Shown: in pieces, positions 9,466 through 24,278 of the stretch | How positions within the stretch are numbered: the first letter of the stretch is position 1 | Layout of the letters: each line of letters begins with the position of its first letter | DNA from: Schizochytrium sp. TIO01 | Lineage: Eukaryota > Sar > Bigyra > Thraustochytrida > Thraustochytriidae | DNA length: 64,000 nucleotides | Assembly (NCBI GenBank): GCA_004764695.1 | Contig: SMSO01000033.1 | Location: forward strand, 449,001-513,000 | Direction of reading: 5' to 3' | Translations under genes and position numbers: made by a program | Notes under the pieces: model-generated | The model's input: the letters and a program-made list of their open reading frames with translations, nothing else | What the model was told of the DNA's origin: nothing | Database searches by the model: none

Positions 9466-10290
9466 TTTCTAAATATAGTAGCTTGAAGCAACTGTCAACG
9501 TGCTTGTGATCTTCTGAAGCGCTCGACGAAGAGGTACTTCTACAGAGGCACGCGCTTGGGTCAAGACGCAATGTCAAACTTCTCTCGTTTCAACTTAATC
9601 CCTACCAACTACTTTAGGCTTGAGTTATTCAGTGAACAATGCCTGTACCCAGAGCGTTGGGCCGCCAAGCCATAAGCTCGCTTTCGGGTACTGGTCGAAA
9701 AGGGTTTGGTGGTTCAAGTTGTGCTCTTCTTGGTCCTTTTACGTTCATATAATTCTAATTCAGCGTATCGTATGGAAAAAATAAAAATAAAAAATCTACC
9801 CCCCGTGGATAAAATAAAAGATGAATCCTTCCTCCAGGCAAAAACAAACTCTACTTCTCGACATTTTTTCGCTCCTGCGATCAGCTACAGCTCCCTTGTG
9901 CACGGTCCTGAGGAGAGCTGGTACACCAGTCCAGCCAAGCCTCCCCTTTTTCAACAACACCCAATTTCGATGTACCACGCGATTTTCATATCGGGTCAGT
10001 AGCTTTCACTCCTCCTCTTCTTTTCATAGTAGGTCTGTCTTACGTCCCGATCTACCAACTTGGAACTTGTCCATCCATGTGCAAAAGTAAAAGTGATCAA
10101 AGCCTGAAAGAACAGCATCATTTTCGACACCTGAGGAGTTAACTAAGCAATTAGCAGGCAGGTGCCAACCTAAAATGCACACACGGAGGATCTTGCTTAC
10201 ATTGGGCCAGTCAGCACTCAAAGTTGGCTGGAAACTAAGCTAGGTAGGTACCTCATAAGGCAACTTATGACGCTTGGAGTTGAAGCTGTA
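9466..10290. other. Intergenic region upstream of the PqiA-like gene
   Basis: About 825 bases with several short open frames on both strands but no recognisable protein. The sequence contains a GGTAGGTACC-type motif near 10243. It probably includes the promoter of the leftward PqiA-like gene and ends at the repeat that begins near 10291. Confidence 0.5.
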
Positions 10291-11230
10291 AAAAAGTTTG
10301 CAAAACTTGCATTTCCCATGGTGACAAAGCGGGTCTAAGGCCCAATCGCGGGCTAGAGGACCAACCCACCCGCGACTCAAAGACAGTTGCTAAATCATGC
10401 CCTTGGGTGGGTGGGTAGGTAGCGCGCAAGGACGCCTCTGGCGGCGCAGCCATCAAGGTCGGCTACGTGTTCACCTTTTGGGGGGCATTTGAAGACCTCG
10501 GATGTGTTCTGAGCTTGTTGTCGATGGTGTCGCATCCATTGCAAGGCTTTGGAGGCCAATCCTCTCGGCAAATTACCAGTTTACACCACTGGCAAGCCAG
10601 GGAAAAGCTCGGCCTCGCGAACGAGCTCCTGTCGGAAGCCAACGAACGGCACATCATTCGAGCTGTCTTGATTTTGACCACAATCTTGTTAACCTGTTCA
10701 GCTTTCGAGTTTAGGCAAAAGGATGACACCGTAGTTTTCACGGAGCCAAACAAAGCGCGAGTTTGCGGTGAATCTCGGTGGCCCAGTAGGGCCCGCAAGC
10801 CCGGCCTTTTGAAGTTGGAGCTGATCCTTCTTCTATCGATGTCTTTGTAGACGGCGGAGGTCACCAATCTGGCATTTGAAATTCTCTTTTGGCTCGGCGG
10901 AGGACTAGATTATGTTACGGGTCGGTGCTGCAGTGCTCTCAGCCGCTGGAACAAACCGCAGCTGTAGGTGCGCTCAGCGTCATCACTTGCGTATATACGA
11001 TAAGCACCCGAGGGCACTTGCTGAGGCGCCAAGCTTCTGATTAAGTCATTTGATAATTTGAATTGAAGGTTTGGTCCATTTAGAGTATTTGGAGCTTGGT
11101 GGTTCCTTGGCCATTCCATTTTCTTACCCAACCTCTGCTTCTTAGCAAAGACCTAAACAACTACAATATATCATTTATGCTATTCTACTATTCTGAGGTT
11201 ATGTAAGTTCTAACGTTGTCATAGGTACAG
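10291..11230 (-). pseudogene. Decayed TnpB/Fanzor-like nuclease fragment, dispersed repeat copy 1
   Basis: This block is homologous along its length to 21621-22520. Read on the minus strand, several frames together give the C-terminal part of a TnpB/Fanzor-type RuvC nuclease. An N-terminal piece YRIYASDDAERTY lies near 10950-11000. IHRKLAL and, in a shifted frame, RENYGVILLPKLES lie near 10705-10785 (RuvC-II-like region; the usual Glu reads Lys). KTARMMC and GFRQELVREAELFPG lie near 10600-10670. A zinc-ribbon half CREDWPPKPCNGC lies at about 10525-10585. FKCP and DGCAARGVLARYL end it near 10410-10490. At least three frameshifts and several stops make it non-functional. Family knowledge: Fanzors are eukaryotic TnpB relatives guided by an omega RNA. 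No N-terminal DED-type first motif, guide RNA or terminal repeats were identified. Confidence 0.65.
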
Positions 11231-20478: not shown

Positions 20479-21620
20479 GCTAGCCTTCCAACAAAATTAT
20501 TGCACCAGGATCAGCCACGTTGAATTAGACACAAAGCTTCAGCTCAGCGGTAGGCGGACAGCACAGGCTACGCTTCGTTCGGGAACTGCTCCGCGGCGGC
20601 CTTCGTCCAAACTAGCTCAGGTTTCAAACAATCAACAATCGCTGTCACAATAAATCTTTACGTTCTTTTCTTCCTCAACTTTGGAACACTACCCGGTAGG
20701 GGTTGGCTATTCCTGTATACCATTTACTAACTACCTGCCGCCAACGTTCTCTCTTAACTGTCACTCTTCGCAAACTCTAGCTAGTAGAATCCTTAGTAAT
20801 CCGCTAGCAAACTCTAGCGGAAGAGAAAGTAAAAAGAGACGAAAGAGACAAAGAACGAGCGAAGGAAAGGGAAGAAGCTCCACGTGTACAACCTTCGTTT
20901 TCTCTTGAGGTCGCGTGAAGCATCCACCAGCGACTGCTCAGACTCGCTTAGGGATGCTCAGGTCGGTCGTCACAGGGTGGGTACCTGGGGCGCTGTCTTC
21001 GGGCCTTCTGTAGTGCTTCGCTCCGCATTGCCGGCAAGCTTTCTGGCTGAAGATTAGAACTTGCGGACAGGTCGATCTTTCTTGAATACACCATGTCTGG
21101 TGTACAAGAGGGAGGCCGGGGTACAACTGCTGATATTAGCGAACCAGGATCATAGACCGCAACCAAAAAGTGATTTCCCTTCTTCCTGTGCTTCAAGAAA
21201 GTTATGCATTTGCTTACTTCCTTTCGGAGTAGCAGCAGTAGAACTTCTTTTCTGCTGGGAGATTGGAAACGCAACAGAAACGAGCCCTTAGACTAGGCAG
21301 TGAGAGGCTCATGTGTCATGGCCATAGATTATTTGGTACGGCATTGTGAATGTAGATGGGCAATTCAATAACCTGCCTGGTTCTTCAACGTTTCATGCGA
21401 GATACCTGCGGCAAAGGATACCGGATGAATTCCGCGGATTGTGAAACGACCTTAGACACGGCCTGCCAGATTTCTGAGCACTATACGTACCTATGCCCAT
21501 CGCGAGGCATATATTCAAAGAAGAGCAAAGTTTATATAAGTTGGAGAACTAGGTACTATGAAATTTAATGTGGGAACCATCACCAAAACTTCGTGGAAAT
21601 TTACCAATTGGAGATTAATC
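20479..21620. other. Intergenic region upstream of membrane-protein gene
   Basis: About 1,140 bases with no recognisable gene. A GC-rich patch next to 20479-20640 probably forms the promoter and 5' UTR of the leftward membrane-protein gene. A purine-rich stretch lies at 20820-20880. The region leads into repeat copy 2. Confidence 0.5.
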
Positions 21621-22520
21621 TGTAAATTTACAAAGCTTGCATTTACAAAGTGGCGCTAAGGTCCAATCGTGGTTAAAGACTCGAGACTCAAAGCCAATTT
21701 TTAATTCATGTCCTTGAATGGTAGCGCACAAGGATGCCTCTGGCGGCATGGATATCACTATATTTGCGGGGCATTTTAAAATCTTGAATGCTCCGGGCTT
21801 GTCGTGGATGGTATCTAATACCGGATTTATTGCATAGTTTTGAGGTGCAATCCTCTCGGCAAATTACCAGTTTACACCACTGGCAGGGAAATGTTCGGCC
21901 TTGCGAATGAGCGCCTGCCGGAAGCCAACGAACGACACATCATCCAAGCTGTCTTGATTTTGATTCGTGATTGTGTTAACTTGTTGGGGTTTCGAATTCT
22001 GGCAAAAGGATAACACTGAAGTTTTCAAAGAGCCAAAGCACAAGTTTGCGGTGAATCTCGGTGGTCCAGTAGGACCCGCATGCCCGGCCTTATGAAGTTG
22101 ACCCCTCTACTACCGATGTCTCTGTAGACGGCGGAGAACGCCAATCTGACATTTGTAGTTCTCTTTTTGCTTGGCGAAGGGCACTTTGACGTAGATAATG
22201 GTACGGTCAGTGCTGCGTTGGTGGAACAAACCGCAGTCATAGGTGCGCTCGGCGTCATCACTTGCGTATATGCGATAAGCATCCGAAGGGCACTAACCAA
22301 GGCGCCAAACTTCTGATTCAGCACATTGATAATTTGAATTGAAGGTTTGGTTCACTTGTAGTATTTGAAGCTTGGTGGTTCCTTAGTCATGCCATTTTCT
22401 TTCCTGGCCTCCACTTCTTAACAAAAACCTAAATAATTACAATATATCATTCATATGGAAAGTCACTCACTACCTACCATTCGGAGATTATATAAGTTCT
22501 AACGTTTTCATAAGCTCAGT
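21621..22520 (-). pseudogene. Decayed TnpB/Fanzor-like nuclease fragment, dispersed repeat copy 2
   Basis: This is the better-preserved copy of the repeat, read on the minus strand. From right to left: AYRIYASDDAERTYDCGLFH (about 22,210-22,270); HRKLVLWLFENFSVILLPEF followed by ET, with the RuvC-II-type Glu intact (21,980-22,055); IKIKTAWMMC and, after a frame change, GFRQALIRKAEHFP (21,895-21,960); CREDCTSKLC then NKSGI (21,820-21,880), a zinc-ribbon half in which the second CG is lost; FKILKCP (near 21,780); and DIHAARGILVRY (21,720-21,760), the RuvC-III-type Asp region, followed by a stop as at TnpB C-termini. Frameshifts and stops inactivate it. Its right end is only about 40 bp from the frameshifted transporter gene. 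The N-terminal part of the nuclease is missing or unrecognisable. Confidence 0.7.
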
Positions 22521-22557
22521 ATATTTGTTGCAGCGCAAGGAGGAGAATCTATGGCGT

Positions 22558-24278
22558 TTATATTACTTTGACCTCAGTGGGTGTTGAGGGTTCCACTTGT
22601 CCAAGAGAAATAGGTGGCGAGAGCTCGACGCTTGGGTTTGTAGAGACAAACTGGCCCATAGTGCCTTGTTGACGCTGTTCGATCTGTCGGTGGTCTATTT
22701 GGTCGAAATACTCTTTCCATGAATCACCCTGGCGGTAGCGCAACGTGTCATGAATATCTAACTTGGCTTGGTCAAAATCAATCAGACACCCAATGAGAGC
22801 AGCCATCAGAAAAATAGGTCCTAACCCAACAATCGACCATCGAAGATGATCAAATTTCTCGTTGATTGTAGTGTAGAGGAGAGGCGGAAGCCAAGTCAAA
22901 AGACTTGCGAACGTGACGCGGATCGAAAAAAATGTGGTCTCTTTCCCGCCTGGCACCAAGGCGCTAAAAGTCCATTACAAACTGTAAAAATCCCTCCTAA
23001 CAGAAGGCCCCAAACAACACATAATGCTCCAACAATAAATACAACATAATCATCAGTGACCTGCTCAAAAGTATTACCAGCTTCGGCAGTTACAGTATCG
23101 CACATTCCATATTGGGTAGAATCCTGACTGTCTCCAGAGCTGCTATTGTTGCTTACGGGCACCGAGTCTGCAATCAAAATTGCCGGAGTGAGAAAAAAGG
23201 ATACCCCAGCTAAGATATTAATCCCGACGTAGATTCTCTTCAATGAAAAGAACTGAGCTAGCACGGAGATCAACAAAGACCCTGGAAGAGAAAACACCAA
23301 TGCTAGTGCCAAAAAGCAGGATGTAAGAAAGCTCGAAAAACCTAAATAAAATTGCAAATACGTAGTTGCCAGAATTGATATTGCACCTGCGCCAGCATTA
23401 CCAAAAGACCAAGAAATGAGAAACTTAGCCAGCTGTGGGTACGTGGTCCATACTTCACGACTCGAGTCAACAAGGTGTCCAAGACCAAAACACGCCTTGT
23501 TGACTTTGGGAATGCCAATTCCTCGAGATTTGATCAGGCGATATCCTGGGGAAAACCAGCAGACAGCATAAACCACAGATATAAAACCTCCATACGAGCC
23601 TTGATCAAACGAGTTCCACGAGAGGAGATGACCCAACAAAATGACGAACAATGCTACTACAACCTGAGAACCATTCATCATTAAGTATGCATAGCCAAGG
23701 TATCTTGTTACCTTCAAATCATCAGTTGAGAGTTCAGGCGCCAAGCTTGCAGACAAAAGTGCTGCACCCTCATATGCGATTCCGCCTAAGGCGAAAAAGA
23801 CGCCGATAGCGATTAAGCTAGCATTACTGTGCCATAACGGTTCAGGCAAGAATTCTGATGGGTTCTCAGGGTCCACAGTATGCGATTCCCCAGAAAGTAG
23901 TAAAATTGCCATTGCTAGACTGAACAAGAAGAGGCTTATATAAAAACCAGCTAGCAGGGTCTTTCGGTATGGGGTGATATCCGCCAATGTTCCAAGAAAT
24001 GGCCCTATGACGGCAATGGACACTCCCGTGATAATTCCGATTGTGGAGACAAACGAGCTTGCTTTCAGGCGCCCTCCGAGGATCATTGCGTCACAATCTG
24101 CCATAGCTCGAGCAAATTCGTTTTGTGCTACGCTTGCAAACAGGCCAGCAAAAATGCTTGGCGCTCCACGTGCAGCGAACAGGTACACAAAGCCACGCGC
24201 CTCGCCATTCTCCATGTTGGTACATCTGCTCAACCACGAGTTGGACTCGTACGCACCCCTCGATTCCTCCTTTGCCAT
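22558..24278 (-). pseudogene. Atg22/UMF1-like MFS transporter, interrupted by a 1-nt deletion
   Basis: This is a paralogue of the intact gene at 28991-30610, sharing EARGFVYLFAARGAPSIF (paralogue EGRGFVYVCASRGTTTIY), about 12 membrane segments, and a C-terminal INEKFDHLRWSIVGLGP. The first frame runs from 24278 to a stop near 22896 (460 residues) and the second (in-frame end) covers 22558-22959. Comparison with the paralogue (NSLFAALIPGGKE) shows that one base is missing at 22963/22964: NGLLA then out of frame to LVPGGKETTFF. The family includes yeast vacuolar Atg22 amino-acid effluxers and related solute transporters. The break may be a real inactivation or a sequencing error; most of the protein is otherwise well conserved, which favours recent loss or an error. 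Confidence 0.75.

Follow-up and report, generated by a model that had tools for sequence, protein, structure and literature searches.

The window analysed here is a stretch of 64,000 nucleotides, positions 449,001 to 513,000, from contig SMSO01000033.1 of Schizochytrium sp. TIO01. On its minus strand, at 21607..22516, lies copy 2, a complete 910-bp element delimited from left to right end by DNA search and multiple alignment, which we read as non-autonomous and derived from an IS607/Fanzor element. Matches to it elsewhere in the genome begin at query position 49 of the DNA search, which is window position 22512, and in the multiple alignment column agreement at its ends drops from ~0.8 to ~0.45. 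The left core dinucleotide, taken from end reading, is the TG at 22517..22518 (minus strand), where the flank reads ACTG; the right one is also TG, at 21605..21606 (minus strand). Within the element, DNA and protein alignment place a tnpA remnant at 22066..22395 (minus strand) that keeps the start codon, the helix-turn-helix part and the beginning of the recombinase domain and carries frame-breaking lesions common to the family. The scar of a 1191-bp internal deletion follows at 22050..22073 (minus strand), found with a 24-mer at one mismatch, and marks where tnpA now runs directly into the 3' portion of tnpB. A remnant of that 3' part of tnpB/Fanzor occupies 21701..22065 (minus strand), with the RuvC-II region, the alternative Glu, a broken zinc ribbon and RuvC-III. 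The right end, at 21607..21700 (minus strand), corresponds in position to the putative reRNA scaffold of intact copies, with an eroded fold (z -1.2). A sister member of the family, copy 1, lies at 10273..11227 (minus strand), as the label "copy 2" had implied. It is 955 bp long, with TG as the left core, CG as the right dinucleotide and the identical deletion junction at 10767..10790 (minus strand; 24-mer, two mismatches). Its left TG was read separately, the left end being missing from the slice used in the core count. The stop codon of an open frame at 22558-22959 (minus strand) is 42 bases upstream of the left end of copy 2, so the insertion may sit in a 3' untranslated region.

The preliminary description had read positions 21621-22520 as the fossil of one TnpB/Fanzor-like nuclease gene. 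That span is close to the true feature, but the tnpA remnant inside it went unnamed. All five peptides it quoted are present on the minus strand, from ~22089 to 21709 and across three frames, and the tnpB fragments are spread over three frames with stops, in keeping with a dead reading frame. Descent from TnpB/Fanzor also holds, as the stretch aligns at the DNA level with intact copies of Fanzor in this genome; the lowest E value is 3e-42 in the tnpB part and 1e-10 in the tnpA part. At the protein level, the RuvC-II piece is identical to the intact protein at 20 of 25 residues (E 9e-13), the zinc-ribbon/RuvC-III piece at 30 of 68 (E 6e-14) and the TnpA piece at 27 of 52 (E 1e-14). The Glu of ENFSVILLPEFET, taken as RuvC-II-like, does stand at the canonical TnpB place; the alternative Glu of Fanzors is instead the E of CREDCTSKLC. 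This last peptide, described as half of a zinc ribbon, is a broken one: Ser stands in place of the second Cys of the first pair, and there is no second pair. RuvC-I, the site of the DPG motif, falls inside the 1191-bp deletion and is consequently absent from copy 2, not merely frameshifted, leaving only the alternative Glu of the Fanzor2 fingerprint (DPG and alternative Glu in an open frame). By these comparisons copy 2 is what is left of an IS607 element with two genes, the start of tnpA included.

Lack of a TnpB or Fanzor profile match in any frame had been named as the outcome that would overturn the nuclease reading, and taken literally this is what Pfam and NCBIfam searches gave for the fossil pieces alone, with no TnpB/OrfB match. 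Five open pieces of copy 2 searched against Pfam matched neither TnpB/OrfB nor Resolvase, with one irrelevant weak match, and none of three pieces matched NCBIfam. Copy 2 is likewise not among the 34 matches to PF07282 in a scan of the genome (64 Mb, 37 contigs). Since the pieces give no profile match, the identity of the fossil rests on comparison with intact relatives.

Such relatives are present. As the preliminary description had supposed, the lineage hosted these elements, intact ones are still in the genome, and the search it proposed for an intact copy turned up near-full-length copies with open tnpB. The full-length element is ~2.2 kb long and has tnpA, an overlapping tnpB and ends without inverted repeats; in L016:1257-3230 the overlapping genes are in different frames. 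Of 19 near-full-length copies, tnpB is open in 14, tnpA is open to full length in nine and both are open in eight, while in two tnpA stops after 166 codons. The intact TnpA passes the equivalog cut-off of NF033518 transpos_IS607 (143.1 bits, cut-off 110) and has a serine recombinase (Resolvase) domain, PF00239, at 70.5 bits; its helix-turn-helix Pfam matches are under their cut-offs. Judged by sequence, the intact relatives appear to have the N-terminal MerR-like helix-turn-helix and serine recombinase of an IS607 TnpA. The intact TnpB passes PF07282 (50.8 bits, cut-off 26.3) and the helix-turn-helix domain PF12323, with PF01385 under its cut-off, and at 95.2 bits falls short of the NCBIfam guided_TnpB cut-off of 100. 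The Fanzor fingerprint described in PMC10711439 pairs DPG at RuvC-I with an alternative Glu placed six residues ahead of the zinc finger, and the two occur together in one open frame in 14 of the 19 copies. With an IS607 TnpA beside it, this combination classes the intact relatives as Fanzor2. The nearest solved structure to the intact TnpB is the TnpB-like protein L79 (E 2e-18). Outside the genome, the top-ranking protein match is an MMETSP protein derived from a transcript, 99.2% identical to L015 over 601 residues, suggesting expression; it is followed by metagenome proteins (45-48%) and one from Durusdinium (46%). A virus collection gave a single relative at 28% identity, so no recent viral source is seen. 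HSP90 of this genome is 100% identical to an MMETSP0958 protein filed under a name starting with 'Auranti' and 95% identical to that of Hondaea fermentalgiana, by which the host would probably be an Aurantiochytrium, a thraustochytrid. The taxid of the former entry, 87120, points instead to Rhizopogon, a fungus, and two longer entries under plant names have higher bit scores at 68-69% identity. A RuBisCO search of the genome gave no match, and a search with one window protein gave relatives without names.

To define the family, we searched the genome at the DNA level with 21600-22560, scoring 40 of 217 candidates. At least 48 matches were found, mostly 68-78% identical and 0.4-0.95 kb long. 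The two window copies and loci L026-L062 gave 39 sequences, 28 of which were kept and aligned with MAFFT, which also placed the gaps; 10 full-length, truncated or cut-short loci and one without a match were left out. Compared with intact L016, a 1191-bp gap at element positions 511-1701 is empty in at least 24 of the 28 copies. The deletion junction is visible in all 28 rows, with additional loss around it in L040. Further lesions found in the majority of the 28 copies are a 4-bp insertion and three deletions, of 32, ~10 and 7 bp. With up to three mismatches, the scar 24-mer occurs at 50 places in the genome including both window copies, and its reversed control at none. This count is a lower bound because copies differ from the column majority by ~14%. 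Scar-bearing copies are spread over many contigs with unrelated flanks, and agreement between copies at the ends of the intact element is 0.72-0.89 inside and 0.45-0.57 outside.

Lesions common to the majority of copies imply that the family multiplied once its genes were already lost. The feature would then be one member of a family that carries an internal deletion and spread after gene loss, and not a single gene fossil decayed in place. Mismatches in the 28 copies show no bias by codon position, at.149/.133/.143 for the tnpA part and.145/.124/.136 for the tnpB part. Among 16 full-length rows, both genes have most mismatches at the third position (tnpA,.0147/.0103/.0222; tnpB,.0364/.0252/.0515). 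In the tree, terminal branches are long (median 0.14) and internal ones short. The modern copies group as one clade (support 100/100), and window copies 1 and 2 are sisters (97/91). A branch with support of 55/81 sets the derivatives apart; it was recovered in 48% of bootstrap trees from a bootstrap that had not settled. On this evidence the burst of the derivative family predates the present full-length copies. With many copies, a common deletion, kept ends and no coding constraint, it has the properties of a non-autonomous family.

The core dinucleotides separate old from modern copies. Of the old copies that could be scored, 13 of 20 have TG on the left and 11 of 19 on the right, against a background of.071. 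Modern copies have AG on the left in 13 of 15, preceded by C to give CAG in 12, and on the right in all 15. The left-end position for this AG count was set by eye; free of that choice, 12 of 15 modern copies have CAG no more than 12 bases from the conserved left end, compared to.153 expected. L026 and L035, decayed and older near-full-length copies, have TG on the right, indicating that a TG-core parent lineage existed. Neither old nor modern copies have the GG exchange core of IS607. With TG in old copies, AG in modern ones and GG in bacterial IS607, the core is unlike the bacterial one and has switched at both ends together. A matching dinucleotide at both ends would be the mark expected of a serine recombinase, and from the flanks there appears to be no target duplication beyond the 2-bp core common to both ends. 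A modern copy, L022, is nested in an old derivative, and its joined flanks align with uninterrupted derivatives without a gap at the join, as expected if nothing was duplicated beyond the core. A search for empty sites with the joined flanks of five modern copies returned self matches and one chance match, with no orthologous empty site. Contrary to expectation for a precise recombinase, the spacing from CAG to the conserved left end of modern copies ranges from 3 to 8 bases. This stretch varies in sequence and length among close copies, for example L012, L014, L017 and L019, and in L019 it contains a repeat of 11 bases from the right flank.

Between the intact and the deleted elements is a class with tnpA broken and tnpB open. 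Six of the 19 full-length-type copies (L012, L013, L015, L017, L021 and L037) have tnpA closed at the identical codon, with tnpB open in five of the six. In L013, L015, L017 and L037, tnpA carries a common 295-bp insertion, which follows position 1043-1044 in oriented locus coordinates. It has no GT at its start and is a candidate intron or passenger; if an intron, tnpA may not be broken by it. Among the three copies with the insertion and an open tnpB, pN/pS of tnpB is 0.43, next to 0.38 among the eight copies with both genes open. Pairwise values for the three are 0.52 (Fisher p 0.06), 0.40 (p 0.002) and 0.42 (p 0.03), in comparisons that are not independent. These ratios suggest continued selection on the Fanzor once tnpA had gone, though gene conversion between copies may also give the appearance of constraint. 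Copies with a tnpA lesion and a constrained open Fanzor would offer a direct way to ask what role a Fanzor has for an element that cannot move itself.

We also folded the right ends of seven sequences. Four were predicted to fold clearly better than shuffles: the intact L009 (z -3.6), L013 (z -6.0) and L021 (z -3.6) and the derivative L048 (z -3.3). L027 (z -0.4) and the window copies (copy 2 as above; copy 1, z 0.4) were not. With the pairing made by eye, one pair of stem 1 is C-G, U-G or U-A between copies and one pair of stem 2 is A-U or G-C. The RNAalifold consensus over 26 right-end rows is a single 5-pair hairpin, and in an Rfam search of L009, L013 and L048 the right end had no match. 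The published reRNA of IS607 TnpB, as described by Yoon et al. 2023 (PMC10711439), has three stem-loops and a pseudoknot. Similarly, the predicted right-end fold has three stem-loops, and by eye the loop of stem-loop 2, CUUAG, is complementary to the terminal CUAAG in a pseudoknot-like manner. The number of the loop in the pseudoknot differs from that in the published structure. The IS607 TnpB of that work has the DPG and alternative Glu fingerprint, as does the intact protein here.

Taken together, copy 2 is very probably a member of an old non-autonomous family that arose from an IS607-type TnpA and Fanzor2/TnpB element via a single 1191-bp deletion and was presumably moved by TnpA in trans. 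That one internal deletion in a full-length element would have taken out the remainder of tnpA together with the first part of tnpB, including RuvC-I, and spared both transposon ends. TnpA from full-length TG-core relatives would have acted in trans on the ends of the derivatives, which we infer because these share their ends and core type with the full-length lineage. It would have circularised the derivative and then inserted the circle by exchange across the 2-bp core. The burst would have preceded the present AG-core full-length copies, with the window copies decaying since. Counting against this account are the CG in place of TG on the right of copy 1 and the low support for a single derivative clade (55/81).

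The Fanzor/TnpB gene of a full-length element could instead have decayed in place, independently in each copy. Copies of that kind are known here (L026, L029 and L035), and tnpB fragments in three frames with stops would fit, but the aligned copies have one deletion and common secondary lesions. For the family this reading is refuted by the shared scar, with its 50 places against none for the control, and overall we hold it to be very improbable. Segmental or local duplication in place of transposition would suit two sister copies only 11 kb apart. It is hard to credit, however, as agreement between copies ends at the transposon ends, copies 1 and 2 have no clear likeness past theirs, the copies are on many contigs and core dinucleotides stand directly outside the element ends. 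Copy 2 has open stretches of 60-108 codons and copy 1 has one of 134 codons, leaving room for the tnpA-tnpB fusion to code for a domesticated small protein. With the codon-position signal absent in the 28 copies and frame-breaking lesions in the majority of them, that proposal can practically be dismissed.

A further reading is that the non-coding copies are kept as a source of guide RNA, used at empty sites by Fanzor supplied in trans. The family does retain the right-end region, derivative L048 folds like intact L009, L013 and L021 into three stem-loops, and the Fanzor is constrained in copies with broken tnpA. TnpA needs the right end regardless, however, and right-end columns are not better conserved than the remainder. 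In addition, three of the seven folded sequences, including both window copies, fold no better than shuffles, and neither the lone RNAalifold hairpin nor the Rfam result speaks for a kept RNA. We regard this reading as unlikely. A broader version, also doubtful, is a three-tier RNA-guided mobile system of autonomous IS607 elements, dead-tnpA elements with a selected Fanzor, and non-coding copies consisting of ends and a guide-RNA scaffold. All would be moved by TnpA in trans, Fanzor with RNAs from any tier would cut or protect matching empty sites, and the TG to AG core change would have gone alongside a change in target preference. If so, the non-coding copies would be mobile guide-RNA genes.

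Returning to a non-autonomous family moved in trans, we compared it with known systems from published accounts. Like the eukaryotic IS607-type Fanzor2 elements of Bao and Jurka 2013 (PMC3627910), the elements here have a TnpA_IS607-like serine recombinase and Fanzor2 and are without terminal inverted repeats. The elements described there code for Fanzor2; here a deletion family without coding capacity occurs beside them in at least 50 copies, and the cores are TG or AG. Bacterial IS607 (eLife 2018, PMC6188088) has the same two overlapping genes, with no inverted repeats or target duplication, and likewise uses a 2-bp exchange core, which is GG in bacteria and TG (old) or AG (modern) here. Deleted or non-autonomous copies accompany Fanzor elements elsewhere too, as in TE-N2_CMe and in CRe-1,2,3 with internal deletions (PMC3627910). 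Those are Fanzor1-linked, with a Helitron or unknown transposase, whereas an IS607 serine recombinase is found here. Among titles and abstracts on Fanzor, IS607 and Aurantiochytrium mobile elements, none described a non-coding eukaryotic IS607/Fanzor2 family. Within that coverage, a non-coding IS607/Fanzor2 family in a eukaryote would be new, and non-autonomous Fanzor1 relatives already known. A 2015 paper (PMC4495683) called the capacity of IS607 for transposition outside prokaryotes uncertain. Given ~19 near-full-length copies scattered over unrelated sites, 50 or more scar copies and a core change at both ends, transposition in a eukaryote seems hard to avoid.

L063, L064 and L065 are modern-type fragments of 29-182 bp that consist of the right end, with the remainder of the element absent. 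At L016 and L022, the left flanks show a modern copy next to or nested in an old derivative that runs the other way, and L025 has a further relative located downstream. It is possible that insertions are clustered.
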